Shown in pieces: positions 52,983 to 58,065 of a stretch of 64,000 nucleotides of DNA. Location of the stretch: contig JAFDZV010000013.1 of NCBI GenBank assembly GCA_018266795.1, forward strand, positions 124,001-188,000, read 5' to 3'. The stretch's first letter is position 1; each line of letters begins with the position of its first letter. The notes beneath the pieces were generated by a model that worked only from the letters and a program-made list of their open reading frames with translations, was not told where the DNA came from and did no database searches. This stretch comes from Bacteroidota bacterium. Its GTDB lineage: Bacteria; Bacteroidota; Ignavibacteria; OLB7. Made by a program: the position numbers and the translations under genes.

Positions 52983-54931
52983 GCACACCGGCACCATATT
53001 ACTTTCCCCTTACCGCGTTCGTTGGCTATGCCATCGCACGGCGTGTACTGCTTTGTACGCTGGTCGATCCCGCGCTCCGCGGCGCCCTCCTCTCCGGACC
53101 GGTCGGCACGGGCAAGTCGGAGTTGATGCGAAGCTTCGGCAGGTTCGTGCAGCATCATGTGGACCCGGATGCACCGTTCGTACAGGTTCCGTCCGGCGTC
53201 ACGGACGACCGGCTTCTGGGCGGGTTGGATCTCGACACGTCGCTGGCATCGGGCGAGCGGCGTGAGCGGCGCGGACTTCTCGCCGAAGCAGACGGCGGAA
53301 TGCTCTTCGTTGACGATCTGCCCCTGCTCGATGAGCACGCCATCGCCTCCATCGCCGGTGCGATGGAGCTGGGCACGGCGATCTGCGAGCGGGAGGGGCT
53401 GAGCGTGCGGCATCGGGCACGGTTCATTCTCCTTGCCACCGCCGTCCCTTCGGAGCGCGAAGCTCCGTTCTGGCTGGCGGACAAGGTGGCATTCCTCGTG
53501 ATGCAGGAACGGCGCATCGATGCCGACCTCGCGCACATGATGATCACACGGCGCGAACGCTACACGCACTCGCCGGCAATGCTTGTCCGCGAGTATCACG
53601 AACGCGAAGCGGCGCTCGCGGCTCAGGTTGCAACGGCGCGCATGCTTTACCCGTTCGTGGCGGCGGGACCGGTTGTACTGCAGCAGATCGTGGAGGCGTC
53701 AGCCCGGTTCGGCGTTGAAGGGAACCGGGCGGATATCCTTGCCACGAAGGCGGCACGGGCGCATGCGGCGCTGCGAGGGTCGCGAACGATCGAGGAGCGC
53801 GACATCACGTTCGCGATCGCAACGGTGCTCGTCCCTCGAAGCCAGGCGATTGCGGCGGACGCGGAGCGCGCGCCGCACGATCGCCCAACGCCCCCCACAC
53901 CGCAGAGCGAGCAGATGGCCCGGGAGGAAGGTGCAGGGGATGCCCCCAGCAACGAGAACGGAGAGCAGAGCGAGCGCGTACAGGAGGAGCCGCAGGATGG
54001 GAACGACGGAGGAGCCAGCGACGATCCCTCCGCCGACTCCGAACGGGTACACGATCCGCTGGGCTTCAACGGTGAGATGCCGGATGTGGAGCAGTTCATG
54101 GATGGCCCCCGGCGCTCCATGACATCGGGCAATCGCGGCGTACGCCTGCAATGGCAACGCGGACGGCACACGCGATCCGTGCAGACAGATCCTTCGGGAA
54201 GGAGGATTGCAATCGGGGCAACGCTGCGCGCTGCGGCTCCGCATCAACGAACGCGGCGGCGCAAGGGTGAAGAGCGCATCCACGTGCGGTGGGAGGATGT
54301 CCGTGTGAAGCGCTTCAGCGAGCGCGCCGGCACGCTCTTCATCTTCTGTGTGGATGCATCGGGCTCGATGGCGCGGAATCGGATGCGGGAAGCGAAGGGG
54401 GCGGTAACGCAATTGCTTCAGGAAGCGTACGTCAATCGCGACTCGGTGGCGCTGATAGCGTTTCGCGGTGACGACGCGGAACTGCTGCTGCCGCCGACGC
54501 CATCCGTGGAGCGTGCGAAGCGTTCGGTGGATATCCTTCCAACCGGCGGAGGCACCCCGCTGGCCGCGGCGCTGATGAAGGCGCTCGGCCTGGTTGCTGC
54601 GGCACGACGTTCCGGCTCGGAGCGCGCACTGGTGATCATCCTTACCGATGGCCGCGCGAATGTCCCGATGAGCGAGAACGCCGCCGGGATGATTCGCGAG
54701 ATACGCCGGCAGCATGTGCAGCAGGAGATTGACCGCATTGCGCTCGTCTATCGGCGTGAAGGAGTCAGCTCTCTCGTTGTGGACACCCGGCAGACATACG
54801 GCGTGCAATCGGACGCCGTGCGGCTTGCCGAGAAAATTGGAGCACGATATTATTTCCTCCCGCGCGTCGATGCGCTTGGTCTGGCAGCCGTTGTGCGGGC
54901 AACGAATGCCGGTGCATCCCCGACACGTTGA
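52979..54931 (+). CDS. bchD: Magnesium chelatase-type subunit D
   Basis: A 650-aa subunit D of the ChlD/BchD type. An AAA+-like domain (about residues 1-280) has GPVGTGKSELM (P-loop 40-48) and a Walker-B-like GGMLFVDDLPLLDEH. An acidic Pro/Glu-rich linker (about 300-365) precedes the integrin-like VWA domain, with MIDAS DASGSM at residues 459-464, GGGTPLAAAL and ILTDGRAN. The VWA domain links subunit I to subunit H. The start is GTG 52979, and VSTPAPYYFPLTAFVG fits the family. It forms an operon with bchI. The role could be chlorophyll or cobalamin chelation; see findings. Confidence 0.92.
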   Translation: MSTPAPYYFPLTAFVGYAIARRVLLCTLVDPALRGALLSGPVGTGKSELMRSFGRFVQHHVDPDAPFVQVPSGVTDDRLLGGLDLDTSLASGERRERRGLLAEADGGMLFVDDLPLLDEHAIASIAGAMELGTAICEREGLSVRHRARFILLATAVPSEREAPFWLADKVAFLVMQERRIDADLAHMMITRRERYTHSPAMLVREYHEREAALAAQVATARMLYPFVAAGPVVLQQIVEASARFGVEGNRADILATKAARAHAALRGSRTIEERDITFAIATVLVPRSQAIAADAERAPHDRPTPPTPQSEQMAREEGAGDAPSNENGEQSERVQEEPQDGNDGGASDDPSADSERVHDPLGFNGEMPDVEQFMDGPRRSMTSGNRGVRLQWQRGRHTRSVQTDPSGRRIAIGATLRAAAPHQRTRRRKGEERIHVRWEDVRVKRFSERAGTLFIFCVDASGSMARNRMREAKGAVTQLLQEAYVNRDSVALIAFRGDDAELLLPPTPSVERAKRSVDILPTGGGTPLAAALMKALGLVAAARRSGSERALVIILTDGRANVPMSENAAGMIREIRRQHVQQEIDRIALVYRREGVSSLVVDTRQTYGVQSDAVRLAEKIGARYYFLPRVDALGLAAVVRATNAGASPTR

Positions 54932-55091
54932 CGTTGTTCTGCGAAGTGAACACCCCGCCTGCGACCAACATTTTCCTGCATGATGATGCATTACTGCTCC
55001 ATATCAGGCAACATCACATGTTGAGACAGCTTCAAATCCGCATGATATCGGCTCTTTTGTTCCCTCGCGATAAAAAAATCGTGATGCAGTC

Positions 55092-55122
55092 TTGCATCGC
55101 CCTCGGTGATGCCTTAAGTTTG
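55092..55122 (+). promoter_or_regulatory. Bacteroidota-type promoter in nth leader region
   Basis: TTG (55092-55094), a 20-base spacer and TAAGTTTG (55115-55122) fit the -33/-7 promoter pattern. Transcription would start near 55128. Confidence 0.55.
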
Positions 55123-55127
55123 TATGT

Positions 55128-55370
55128 GCGTTTGCGCGTAAGTAGCTCAACAGCGCATGCACATTGACATAGAAAGTTGATACCTCTTCGCTGCGTAATA
55201 CAGCGTGAGATATATCAGGAAAGCCTCTCTATGATGATCTTGCACGCATGGGGACAGTGTAAGGTTGTCAGGACTTCTCTCTCATATATACTCCTTTCGT
55301 TGTGGTGGTGAAACAAAAGAGGTAGGGGAATGCCCCTTGACGTGTGGTGACGTCAAGGGGCATCTCATTT
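55128..55370 (+). ncRNA. Candidate small RNA or structured leader
   Basis: From the predicted start near 55128 to the end of the hairpin tail at about 55370, a transcript of roughly 240 bases would carry no sensible reading frame and several short stems. It could be a free small RNA ended by the 55330-55363 hairpin, or the leader of nth-bshC with an attenuator. It does not match a family that I can recall (not tmRNA, RNase P, SRP or 6S by recognisable motif). Confidence 0.35.
55330..55363 (+). terminator. Terminator or attenuator hairpin before nth
   Basis: A perfect 13-bp stem (55330-55342 with 55351-55363, arm ATGCCCCTTGACG), an 8-base loop and then CTCATTTTA. It lies 58 bases before the nth start codon, so it either ends a small RNA or controls read-through into nth. 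Confidence 0.75.
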
Positions 55371-55421
55371 TATGGAACCCGATCTCCGGTTCCCGATCTT
55401 GAACGGCAGGAATACACGCCG

Positions 55422-56258
55422 ATGGCTTCGACGACACCCGCCCCATCCACGGACGACTTCCAGGAGCGCAAGCGCCACACCGCAACGATCGCACGCCTGC
55501 TCCGTTCCTTCATTCACGTGAAGAATGCCATCGAGACCGATGCCAGCTTCATGGAAACGCTTGTTGCCACGATCCTTTCACAGAACACTTCCGACATCAA
55601 CAGCGCCCGCGCGTATCACGCCCTCCGCGAACACTATCCAACCTGGGACGACGTCGCCAAGGCCAAGCCGCATGCACTGGCACAGGTTATCAGGAGAGGT
55701 GGGCTTGCCGATCAGAAGGCTCGCACGATTCTCGATGTTCTGCACGTCATACACGCGCGCCATTCCAGCTACGATCCCGATCATCTGGAAGGAACCTCGG
55801 ACAACGAACTGCTCGCGGAGCTGACCTCGTTGAAGGGAGTTGGATTGAAGACCGCGGCATGCGTGCTGATGTTCTCGTTGCATCGCGATATCTGCGCCGT
55901 GGATACCCACATCCATCGTGTGGCCAATCGCCTGGGTCTGGTTCATACCTCGAACGCAGACAAGACCTTTCATGCGCTGCGCCCACTGATCCCGAAGGGG
56001 AAGGGGCGGCAGTTCCATGTGGATACCATCCTCTTCGGGCGCCGTATGTGCAAGGCTCAGCGCCCGCACTGCTTCGAATGTCCGCTGTACGATGAATGCG
56101 CCTGGCCCGAGAAGGAAGCCCATGCCGAGGCAGCGCAGCGAGGCCCGGCGCCGGCCAGCGGCGATCTGCTCCTTACCGACATGTTTCCCGAACGGAAGCG
56201 GCCGGCCGCCGAACGCACGAATGCTGCGGCAGCAGCAAAACAAACACGCGACGATTGA
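55422..56258 (+). CDS. nth: Endonuclease III (DNA glycosylase/AP lyase)
   Basis: A 278-aa endonuclease III family enzyme, which removes oxidised pyrimidines and nicks abasic sites. The helix-hairpin-helix LTSLKGVGLKTAACVL carries the catalytic Lys, and AVDTHIHRVANRLGLV carries the catalytic Asp. The [4Fe-4S] ligands are C-x6-C-x2-C-x5-C (CKAQRPHCFECPLYDEC), all present. The C terminus is about 40 residues longer than E. coli Nth and is Ala/Arg-rich. ATG 55422 was chosen; the longer frame runs through the hairpin. Two bases separate it from bshC, so both are co-translated. Confidence 0.94.
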   Translation: MASTTPAPSTDDFQERKRHTATIARLLRSFIHVKNAIETDASFMETLVATILSQNTSDINSARAYHALREHYPTWDDVAKAKPHALAQVIRRGGLADQKARTILDVLHVIHARHSSYDPDHLEGTSDNELLAELTSLKGVGLKTAACVLMFSLHRDICAVDTHIHRVANRLGLVHTSNADKTFHALRPLIPKGKGRQFHVDTILFGRRMCKAQRPHCFECPLYDECAWPEKEAHAEAAQRGPAPASGDLLLTDMFPERKRPAAERTNAAAAAKQTRDD

Positions 56259-56260
56259 CC

Positions 56261-57916
56261 ATGGAACAACCCTCAGCAGCGGTGGCAGTGCCGCAGACGC
56301 CGGCACACCGCACTCTTCCATTGGCAGACATCCCCGGCTATCCTCCCTTCCTTTCAACCGGCTCCGGCAACGACATCGTGCTGCTCACGAACGGACTTGC
56401 ATCGCTCGAGCATCTCCGATCGCTCGAGCGGTTCACCCCGGAGCATCGCGCGGCACTGGCCGAGGCGATCGCACTCGATCTCGAACGATGGAACGCACCG
56501 CATGCCGCAACGGAAGCTGCGGCCGCTCTTCGTTCCCCCGAAACGTATGCCGTAATAACCGGGCAGCAGGCCGGGTTGGCCGGAGGCCCGCTCTATACGC
56601 TCTACAAGGCGATTGGAGCGATACGAGCGGCCGAAGATCTGGCACGGCTTCATCCGGAGCACCGCTTCGTTCCGGTGTTCTGGATCGAGGCGGACGATCA
56701 TGATTTCGATGAAGTCCGCATGCTGACGCTGCTGGATCGCAGCGGAGCACCCGTGACCGTTGCCTACGACGATGGCGACAGACGGCCGCTTCACGTTGGC
56801 GAGCGGCGCATCAGCACTGCAGGACTTGCCTCTTTCCTCGAGGAGGTGCGCACAGCACTCCCTGCTACCGAGTTCGGTGATGAAGCGTTGGCGATGCTGC
56901 AGCACGCGTACGACGCGACCGACAATGCAACGCTTGCCGATGGGTTTGCGCGCGCGCTGTACGCGGTTCTCGGCGAAACGCCATTGGTGCTTCTCTCCTC
57001 GCGCAACGCGGGATTGAAGCGGCTTGCAGCCGATGTCTTCGCGCGTGAGCTGAGCAATCCCACCCTGCTGTTCGATGCGCTCATGGCCCGCACGTCCGCA
57101 CTTGCGGCGGAAGGGCTGCCCACGCCGATCGAACCGAAGCCCGGAGCGCTGTTCATCACGCACAACGGCGAGCGGCGAGCACTTGATTACGACGGCAGCG
57201 GCTACACGATCCGCGGCGCCGGCGAACGGATGACAATTGCACGGGCAGCGGAGCTTGCCGCCACGCAGCCGGAACGCTTTTCGCCGAAGGTCGCGCTGCG
57301 ACCTATCGTGCAGGACGCAATCCTCCCAACGGCCGTCTACCTCGGCGGGCCGAGCGAGGTGGCATATCTGCGTCAGATCCGGGATGCCTACGGCGCGTTC
57401 GGCATCGAGGCACCGGCCACGGGGCCGCGTCCGTTCGTGCTCATCACCGACCCTAAGTCGCGCCGCGCGCTGGATGCCGCGAAGCTGGAGCTTACCGCTC
57501 TGCTTGAGCCGGACTTCGATGCCGCCGCTCTACTCGTTGACAGGGAGATGGAGACTCGTCTGGAAGAGGCGCACGCGCGTGCGATGGAGAAGGTGGAGGA
57601 GGCACGGCTGGAACTGGAGGAGATCGTGCGCGCGATCGACCCCACGTTGGAGAAGTCGCTGGGCGCCGCGGCCGCGGGGGCAACGAAGTCCTTCGACGAT
57701 CTTGCGAAACGTGCCGGCTCGGCTCTGCGGAAGAAGCAAAGCACGGAGATCGAACGGCTCAACGCAGCGCGCGCCTTCCTGATGCCGCGCGGTGAACTGC
57801 AGGAGCGGTCGCTCAACGCGCTCACGCTTATTGCACGGTTCGGCGTGGAGCGATGTCGTCTGGCGTTGAACGCAATTACGATGGATGTGGGTGTGATCCA
57901 GGTGGTGGATATGTAG
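56261..57916 (+). CDS. bshC: Bacillithiol biosynthesis cysteine-adding enzyme
   Basis: A 551-aa BshC-family protein (typical length about 540), which joins cysteine to glucosaminyl-malate in the last step of bacillithiol synthesis. The family pattern YAVITGQQAGLAGGPLYTLYKAIGAIRAAEDLA (nucleotide-binding-like motif) and PVFWIEADDHDFDEV are clear, along with PTAVYLGGPSEVAYLRQI. The C terminus has a coiled-coil stretch (about 430-530). bshA and bshB are not in the window. It follows nth by two bases, linking oxidative DNA repair with a redox buffer in one transcript. ATG 56261 is fixed by the family start. Confidence 0.93.
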   Translation: MEQPSAAVAVPQTPAHRTLPLADIPGYPPFLSTGSGNDIVLLTNGLASLEHLRSLERFTPEHRAALAEAIALDLERWNAPHAATEAAAALRSPETYAVITGQQAGLAGGPLYTLYKAIGAIRAAEDLARLHPEHRFVPVFWIEADDHDFDEVRMLTLLDRSGAPVTVAYDDGDRRPLHVGERRISTAGLASFLEEVRTALPATEFGDEALAMLQHAYDATDNATLADGFARALYAVLGETPLVLLSSRNAGLKRLAADVFARELSNPTLLFDALMARTSALAAEGLPTPIEPKPGALFITHNGERRALDYDGSGYTIRGAGERMTIARAAELAATQPERFSPKVALRPIVQDAILPTAVYLGGPSEVAYLRQIRDAYGAFGIEAPATGPRPFVLITDPKSRRALDAAKLELTALLEPDFDAAALLVDREMETRLEEAHARAMEKVEEARLELEEIVRAIDPTLEKSLGAAAAGATKSFDDLAKRAGSALRKKQSTEIERLNAARAFLMPRGELQERSLNALTLIARFGVERCRLALNAITMDVGVIQVVDM

Positions 57917-57973
57917 AGCTGCCGGAAGTCCGTGCGTGAGAACACCGGGAGCGCGGCCCCACTCCTGCAATGT

Positions 57974-57998
57974 GGTCGGCAGCGGGGAGCTGCCGACC
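57974..57998. terminator. Bidirectional hairpin between bshC and ispG
   Basis: A perfect 10-bp stem (57974-57983 with 57989-57998, arm GGTCGGCAGC) with a 5-base loop between the convergent bshC and ispG genes. There is no strong T-run on either side. Confidence 0.6.
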
Positions 57999-58065
57999 GA
58001 TCTCCAACGGAAACCACGGCGCGCGGGCACCTGTGATGCTTCGGCGCATCATCCTGCTCGGCCCA

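Follow-up and report, generated by a model that had tools for sequence, protein, structure and literature searches.

The element described here lies in a 64,000-nucleotide stretch of Bacteroidota DNA (the window), between the end of an upstream VWA/AAA gene at 54931 and the ATG of nth at 55422. Labels beginning with L, G, f and g are our handles for loci, genomes, families and genera. The following features were assigned.

55092–55122, plus strand: sigma-A promoter of the Bacteroidota type, with TTG at 55092–55094, TAAGTTTG at 55115–55122 and 23 nt from TTG to TA; assigned from the sequence and from homologous loci
55128–55372, plus strand: predicted small RNA transcript of about 245 nt, both ends predicted from the promoter and terminator; fold z −5.2; kept in G001, G003 and G004
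55181–55324, plus strand: putative family-specific 5′ domain (a weak assignment), with a closing helix TACCTCTT (55181–55188) / AAGAGGTA (55317–55324) that forms an inverted repeat
55295–55313, plus strand: hairpin A, TTTC and GAAA around the loop GTTGTGGTGGT, with the first UGGUGA at 55306–55311
55324–55329, plus strand: purine bulge AGGGGA, separating hairpin A from the terminator
55330–55371, plus strand: terminator hairpin B and T-rich tail; 14 bp, perfect, arms 55330–55343 and 55350–55363, 6-nt loop GTGGTG, tail CTCATTTT at 55364–55371
55422–56258, plus strand: nth, endonuclease III-like HhH-GPD protein (Pfam PF00730, 6.6e-16)
56261–57916, plus strand: bshC, bacillithiol biosynthesis (Pfam PF10079, 3e-74; PF24850, 2.3e-17)

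A conserved transcription unit ahead of nth

The −7 box of flavobacterial sigma-A promoters is given as TAnnTTTG (PMC9723704). The promoter that an initial annotation had placed at 55092–55122 stands, since the same layout of TTG and TAAGTTTG recurs in homologous loci. With a consensus match, rather than transcription, as the criterion, all six −7 box positions matched in 28 of 55 homologous loci compared with 0.6% of shuffles, and at least five matched in 38 of 55 compared with 10% of shuffles. Two further points of that annotation were borne out: a visible drop in GC content (0.455–0.49 in 200-nt windows over 54900–55399, versus 0.575–0.705 in the other windows of 53000–57999) and a stretch of about 240 nt with no reading frame. 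The non-coding stretch amounts to some 245 nt, and the ORFs inside the element, 30–80 aa in length and overlapping in several frames, include none that is convincing.

Folding of the RNA from 55122 to 55371 gave −94.9 kcal/mol against a mean of −70.5 kcal/mol for 200 shuffles, a z of −5.2 to which the terminator hairpin contributes much. A scan of the region returned four terminator-like sites where 0.5 were expected from shuffles, with the hairpin at 55330–55363 among them. This hairpin had been described as a perfect 13-bp terminator 58 nt before the start of nth; its perfect pairing, its terminator character and its distance from the nth ATG were all as described, whereas the stem has 14 bp. 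Because no promoter of the form TTG-N-TAnnTTTG was seen by eye in the 58-nt gap, nth–bshC is probably expressed by read-through of hairpin B or by transcription from the upstream gene.

A DNA search of the window's family located the 3′ part of the element in four of five genomes. In the genus-mate G001, identity reached 93% over 55173–55371, and over the last 153 nt it was 96% at the DNA level, compared with 65% amino-acid identity for Nth; since this segment is kept far above Nth between genus-mates, the element is more than a product of chance. The same 153 nt were about 80% identical in another genus of the window's family, and the flanks outside approximately 55092–55372 did not align between genera. 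The interval originally delimited, 54932–55421, thus holds a real element, but the conserved unit is narrower, at about 55092–55372. In genus g3, uvrB replaces the VWA gene upstream and nth lies at another distance, with the RNA still present. Another member of the window's family, G002, has nth without a confident copy of the RNA ahead of it. A weak model match in that genome (L167, 1025–1125, minus strand; 19.7 bits), about 380 nt behind nth, is possibly a diverged copy of the RNA that has moved.

Distribution and architecture of the core

Searching 294 class genomes by blastn gave matches in 38, many of them confined to the last 80 nt and the weakest of them short and probably due to chance. 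A pattern scan recovered 30 contigs, which by their record titles were Ignavibacteria(e) (14), Kapaibacterium (6), Bacteroidetes/Bacteroidota (4), Chlorobiota (2), 'bacterium' (3) and 'Bradyrhizobiaceae' (1). The contig titled Bradyrhizobiaceae (L063, JAGFIZ010000066.1, 2924–3019) carries the RNA together with an f14-like amidohydrolase/S9-hydrolase pair; because RNA and gene pair are the same as in family f14, this genome bin is probably mislabelled or contaminated. A phage or virus origin of the element was rejected, the consensus pattern having no matches in viral contigs.

For covariation analysis, 60 candidates (30 + 30) were reduced to 58 by dropping L057 and L064, which were cut off, and these held 35 distinct cores. 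In a MAFFT alignment of the 35 (A4), which was not fitted to any structure, 11 pairs of the proposed structure showed changes on both sides, against a mean of 6.2 in shuffles, and double-changed cells numbered 45, against 11.8; slid controls all fell far below the proposed structure. RNAalifold, run alone on A4, returned the terminator hairpin with nine doubly changed pairs and did not predict hairpin A; at the base of the stem it paired the nearer GAG with CUC, not the GUGAG/CUCAC helix that we had drawn.

A covariance model built from A4 (R1) was run with the stricter filters that apply in searches of more than 40 genomes, so that misses are possible in both of its counts: among the 391 class genomes it matched 57, which belong to 24 of 190 genera and to the families f1, f6, f14, f15, f24, f25, f27, f28, f29 and f30, and, over the phylum, 25 of 395 genomes, 24 of which are class members. 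The one match outside the class, in G505, was weak (E 0.006) and lay inside a long open frame. As a rule R1 matched one place per genome, the exception being a weak antisense echo in G374. From 79 matches in 61 sources (20 of the 30 named loci from the pattern scan, the rest genomes), a set of 55 loci was assembled after removing antisense echoes, L056, L054 and L077 (the same copies as L158, L151 and L130, respectively), L146 (at a contig end), L058 (identical to L055) and L155 (inside a 981-aa frame and probably a chance match). Matched by contig coordinates, the set comprises 52 of the 57 class carriers (all except G171, G201, G239, G261 and G287) and three named contigs.

Fitting the 55 loci to the model (alignment A6) yielded 123 double-changed cells against 31.7 in shuffles, a count to be read with the leaning of a model-fitted alignment towards structure. 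Pairs of the G-U type were frequent, for example at one position with GC in 29 loci, GU in 18 and AU in 8, and this suits an RNA better than a DNA site. Whether relatives keep the structure had been proposed at the outset as a check; it was examined in this way, and the structure survived, with covariation on A4 as well as on the 55-locus alignment. A conserved peptide was rejected as an explanation, frames through the core stopping at different places in different families.

From 5′ to 3′, the family consensus consists of the promoter, a 5′ part variable in both length and sequence, hairpin A, the segment GGUGAG, the purine bulge, hairpin B and the tail. Between its predicted ends at promoter and tail, the RNA of the window has some 245 nt; copies from f6 have about 105 nt, and those from genus g16 about 60 nt. 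The helix closing the 5′ domain of the window's RNA is plausible; a counterpart can be drawn in G003 and G004 at a similar place in a shifted register, and the helix draws on four sequences, whose consensus fold by RNAalifold (alignment A3) did not include it.

Hairpin A usually takes the form CUUUC-GUUGUGGUGGU-GAAAG. It is invariant across four family-f1 sequences, its pairs are formed in 77% of the cells of A6, and the string [AT]TGTGGTGGTGA is present in 38 of the 55 loci. The purine bulge, (A/U)AGGGGA in the consensus, follows GGUGAG; its GGGGA occurs in 46 of 55 loci and is gone from one genus, g16. In hairpin B the stem varies with compensation (10 of 13 pairs showed changes on both sides in A6), and the loop, usually AGUGGUGA, is followed by the short GUGAG/CUCAC helix and the T-rich tail. 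The hairpin was found at all 55 loci and a tail with at least four T in 9 nt at 42; the tails of the remaining 13 had fewer than four, and termination is doubtful in several f14 and f6 copies, whose T-tracts are poor.

The motif UGGUGA, whose second copy in the window (55345–55350) is carried by the loop of hairpin B, occurred at least once in all 55 cores, partly through ascertainment as the covariance model was seeded and trained on motif-bearing copies, and at least twice in 33. Loop B has lost it in f29 and f25, and so has the 5′ part in f27 and in a number of f14 genomes; judged from these sequences, either single position is dispensable. The shorter GGUGA recurs, with as many as three or four copies in one RNA (in the window, within 55306–55350). 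GGUGA can pair with the UCACC that lies close to the 3′ end of 16S rRNA, and ribosome binding through it might be a further role of the RNA.

Genes behind the RNA and competing explanations

The gene behind the RNA was an amidohydrolase at 35 of the 55 loci (33 by ORF clustering, and L060 and L127 by tblastn), an S9-type hydrolase at five, obgE at four, nth–bshC at four, a putative flagellar gene at two and a cytochrome c assembly gene at one; at three the next gene was convergent, and one locus ended with its contig. At L019, L060 and L127 the true gene was hidden by the largest frames of the ORF caller, and L019 was assigned by a search for nth. The convergent loci are L134, L135 (ATP synthase epsilon) and L137 (polysaccharide flippase), and neither the amidohydrolase nor the S9 hydrolase was found there within 3 kb or the stretch examined. 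Genus g79 has all three of obgE, the cytochrome c assembly gene and a convergent neighbour behind the RNA. An amidohydrolase followed by an S9-type alpha/beta hydrolase occurs as a pair in f14, f15, f25 and f29 (for example L161, L148, L125 and L141), so the order RNA–amidohydrolase–hydrolase may be ancestral. The changing downstream genes and the convergent loci indicate that the RNA is kept as its neighbours are exchanged. In some f6 and f14 genomes, a tRNA gene on the opposite strand lies about 0.2–0.3 kb from the RNA (L027, L028, L030, L042, L043, L048, L049, L038 and L024).

These neighbourhoods bear on the two functions first suggested for the element. A switch of the attenuator or riboswitch type that controls oxidative DNA repair and the making of bacillithiol could not be upheld, as nth–bshC lies behind the RNA solely in the window's family and G002 has nth with no confident copy ahead; a private nth–bshC switch was accordingly rejected as the function, other families having other genes in this place. 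The second suggestion, an independent small RNA, agrees with what was found, namely a promoter and terminator of its own, a single copy as a rule, ten families, and neighbours that change and are at times convergent. We consider that 55128–55372 is probably the gene of a free-standing small RNA belonging to a so far unregistered family: it has its own promoter consensus and intrinsic terminator, it occurs independently of the downstream gene (L134, L135 and L137), and its core of hairpin A, purine bulge, and hairpin B with tail is kept in sequence and structure across ten families of one Bacteroidota/Chlorobiota class. Among the observations against this reading are the poor T-tract of 13 copies and the co-directional gene that lies close behind the RNA in most loci, as it would behind a cis-acting leader, with no more than three of the 55 loci convergent.

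Such a leader, an attenuator or riboswitch-like element, is the strongest rival, although on balance we judge it unlikely. It would sense some general signal and switch hairpin B for whichever operon lies behind, and the AGGGG bulge might act as anti-terminator by pairing with CCCCU of the terminator stem. The next co-directional gene starts within about 100 nt in most loci, so close that in the window and in genus g16 no consensus promoter of its own would fit, the amidohydrolase/S9-hydrolase pair looks ancestral, and GGGGA is widely preserved, all of which would suit a leader. However, the downstream genes share no common pathway (DNA repair and thiol synthesis, amidohydrolase, GTPase, flagellar, cytochrome assembly), the three convergent loci lack both usual genes over 3 kb, and no riboswitch of Rfam matched even at E up to 10. 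Nor does the proposed switch hold up: AGGGG stays G where its would-be partner shifts from C to U, with no supporting covariation, and in genus g16 the AGGGG/CCCCU alternative is gone with the terminator still in place. The alternative hairpin AGGGG-AGUG-CCCCU was rejected on the same grounds, its loss in g16 and its want of covariation.

The remaining explanations are all very improbable. A plain promoter combined with the plain intrinsic terminator of the upstream gene, devoid of RNA function, would account for a hairpin and T-rich tail typical of any intrinsic terminator, and terminator stems covary too; yet the promoter lies beyond that gene and ahead of the hairpin, and the unpaired GUGGUG loops, the AGGGGA bulge and GGUGAAAGGUGAG persist through ten families, much better conserved than the coding sequence nearby, which a plain terminator would not lead one to expect. 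Still less probable is a micro-leader peptide acting by ribosome stalling or tryptophan sensing. The window has a possible micro-ORF inside hairpin A, TTG TGG TGG TGA at 55300–55311, and the corresponding 12-mer ([A/T]TG UGG UGG UGA, fMet-Trp-Trp-stop) has a legal start in 38 of 55 loci (36 with TTG and two with ATG, the latter in different families), but it is missing from 17 loci that retain the remainder, the identified downstream genes include no tryptophan gene, and the UGGUGA motif accounts for these letters just as well. We give the least credence to a diverged 6S RNA regulating RNA polymerase. The single copy per genome and the promoter of its own would fit, as would the result that RF00013 matched in none of five genomes of the family and 6S-Flavo (RF01685) in none of 61 of the class, although the control for RF01685 was silent in every genome, so that 0/61 does not show absence. 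6S RNA is defined by a long rod with a large central bubble, whereas the RNA found here shrinks to about 60 nt in g16 and 105 nt in f6 and has one or two hairpins without a long rod or central bubble. SRP RNA (RF00169) was set aside, as it lies elsewhere in all five family genomes (in the window's genome, on contig C47).

Mode of action and relation to known RNAs

As a free-standing small RNA, the element would be transcribed from the promoter at 55092–55122 and would stop at hairpin B, producing a short stable RNA. This RNA may act mainly in trans by presenting UGGUGA in loops A and B to a partner, most likely an RNA-binding protein and less likely complementary mRNAs, without involvement of Hfq. 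Incomplete termination would probably also feed nth–bshC in the window's family. Hfq (PF17209) was found in none of the 25 carriers searched (control genomes were positive in 5 of 14), which makes a classical Hfq-dependent small RNA unlikely.

Pairing in trans was examined by searching six genomes for sequences complementary to loop A (pattern ACCACCACAACG). Of 17 exact matches, six were the RNA's own complement and 11 were non-self matches in unrelated places, no excess over the 11 found with the reversed control. This argues mildly against perfect antisense pairing of loop A with mRNAs, and protein binding is the simpler guess. The only recurrent antisense candidate was at L186 and L178 (G003 and G004), where the loop A complement lies 57–72 nt behind orthologous genes for small secreted proteins, on the same strand.

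CsrB and RsmZ are decoy RNAs that carry a GGA motif in many copies for a CsrA-like partner. The RNA described here resembles them in having a short motif repeated in hairpin loops, a single-copy gene and its own terminator; it differs in that its motif is UGGUGA and not GGA, present in the window's RNA in two copies and not many. Attenuator leaders and riboswitches also have a promoter and a structured leader whose terminator closely precedes a co-directional gene, as the RNA does in most loci; here, however, the gene that follows varies and at 3 of 55 loci is convergent, and no known class matches. More tentatively, the family might constitute a new trans-acting UGGUGA-loop decoy or regulatory hub in a large, Hfq-less, uncultured group, with an RNA-binding protein as partner and a terminator reused as an expression valve for operons that include nth–bshC.

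Searches of Rfam 15 at the gathering score gave no match in the window, which has no tRNA gene anywhere in its 64 kb either, none in L019–L021, and no non-tRNA match in 20 related loci; relaxing the threshold in the window to E up to 10 added nothing but a weak match to a CRISPR repeat, which falls outside the core. Literature searches for small RNAs of the group found no published description of this RNA. As neither Rfam nor these literature searches returned anything relevant, it is, on the basis of the two, a new family of a known kind, the structured bacterial small RNA.

The Chlorobi-1, Chlorobi-RRM, 6S-Flavo and Flavo-1 motifs (RF01696, RF01697, RF01685 and RF01705), as presented in Weinberg 2010 (PMC2864571), are likewise candidate structured RNAs of the same bacterial branch, but none of them reached the gathering score in the window or in the 20 related loci. 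A further parallel is Rfp18, an independent flavobacterial small RNA that regulates metalloprotease mRNAs and is conserved within its genus and in related species (PMC9723704). Like Rfp18 and other independent flavobacterial small RNAs, the RNA found here is free-standing and structured, belongs to the same phylum, has a TAnnTTTG promoter and is kept in relatives; unlike Rfp18, it reaches beyond one genus and its related species, and the two are likened by description.

Single-copy, conserved RNAs outside the housekeeping set are uncommon over ten families of a mostly uncultured class. For a hairpin found ahead of a gene pair, relatives are to be checked before it is called a private switch of that pair. 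With its promoter, terminator, invariant loops and changing neighbours, this RNA offers a handle on RNA regulation in bacteria without Hfq.
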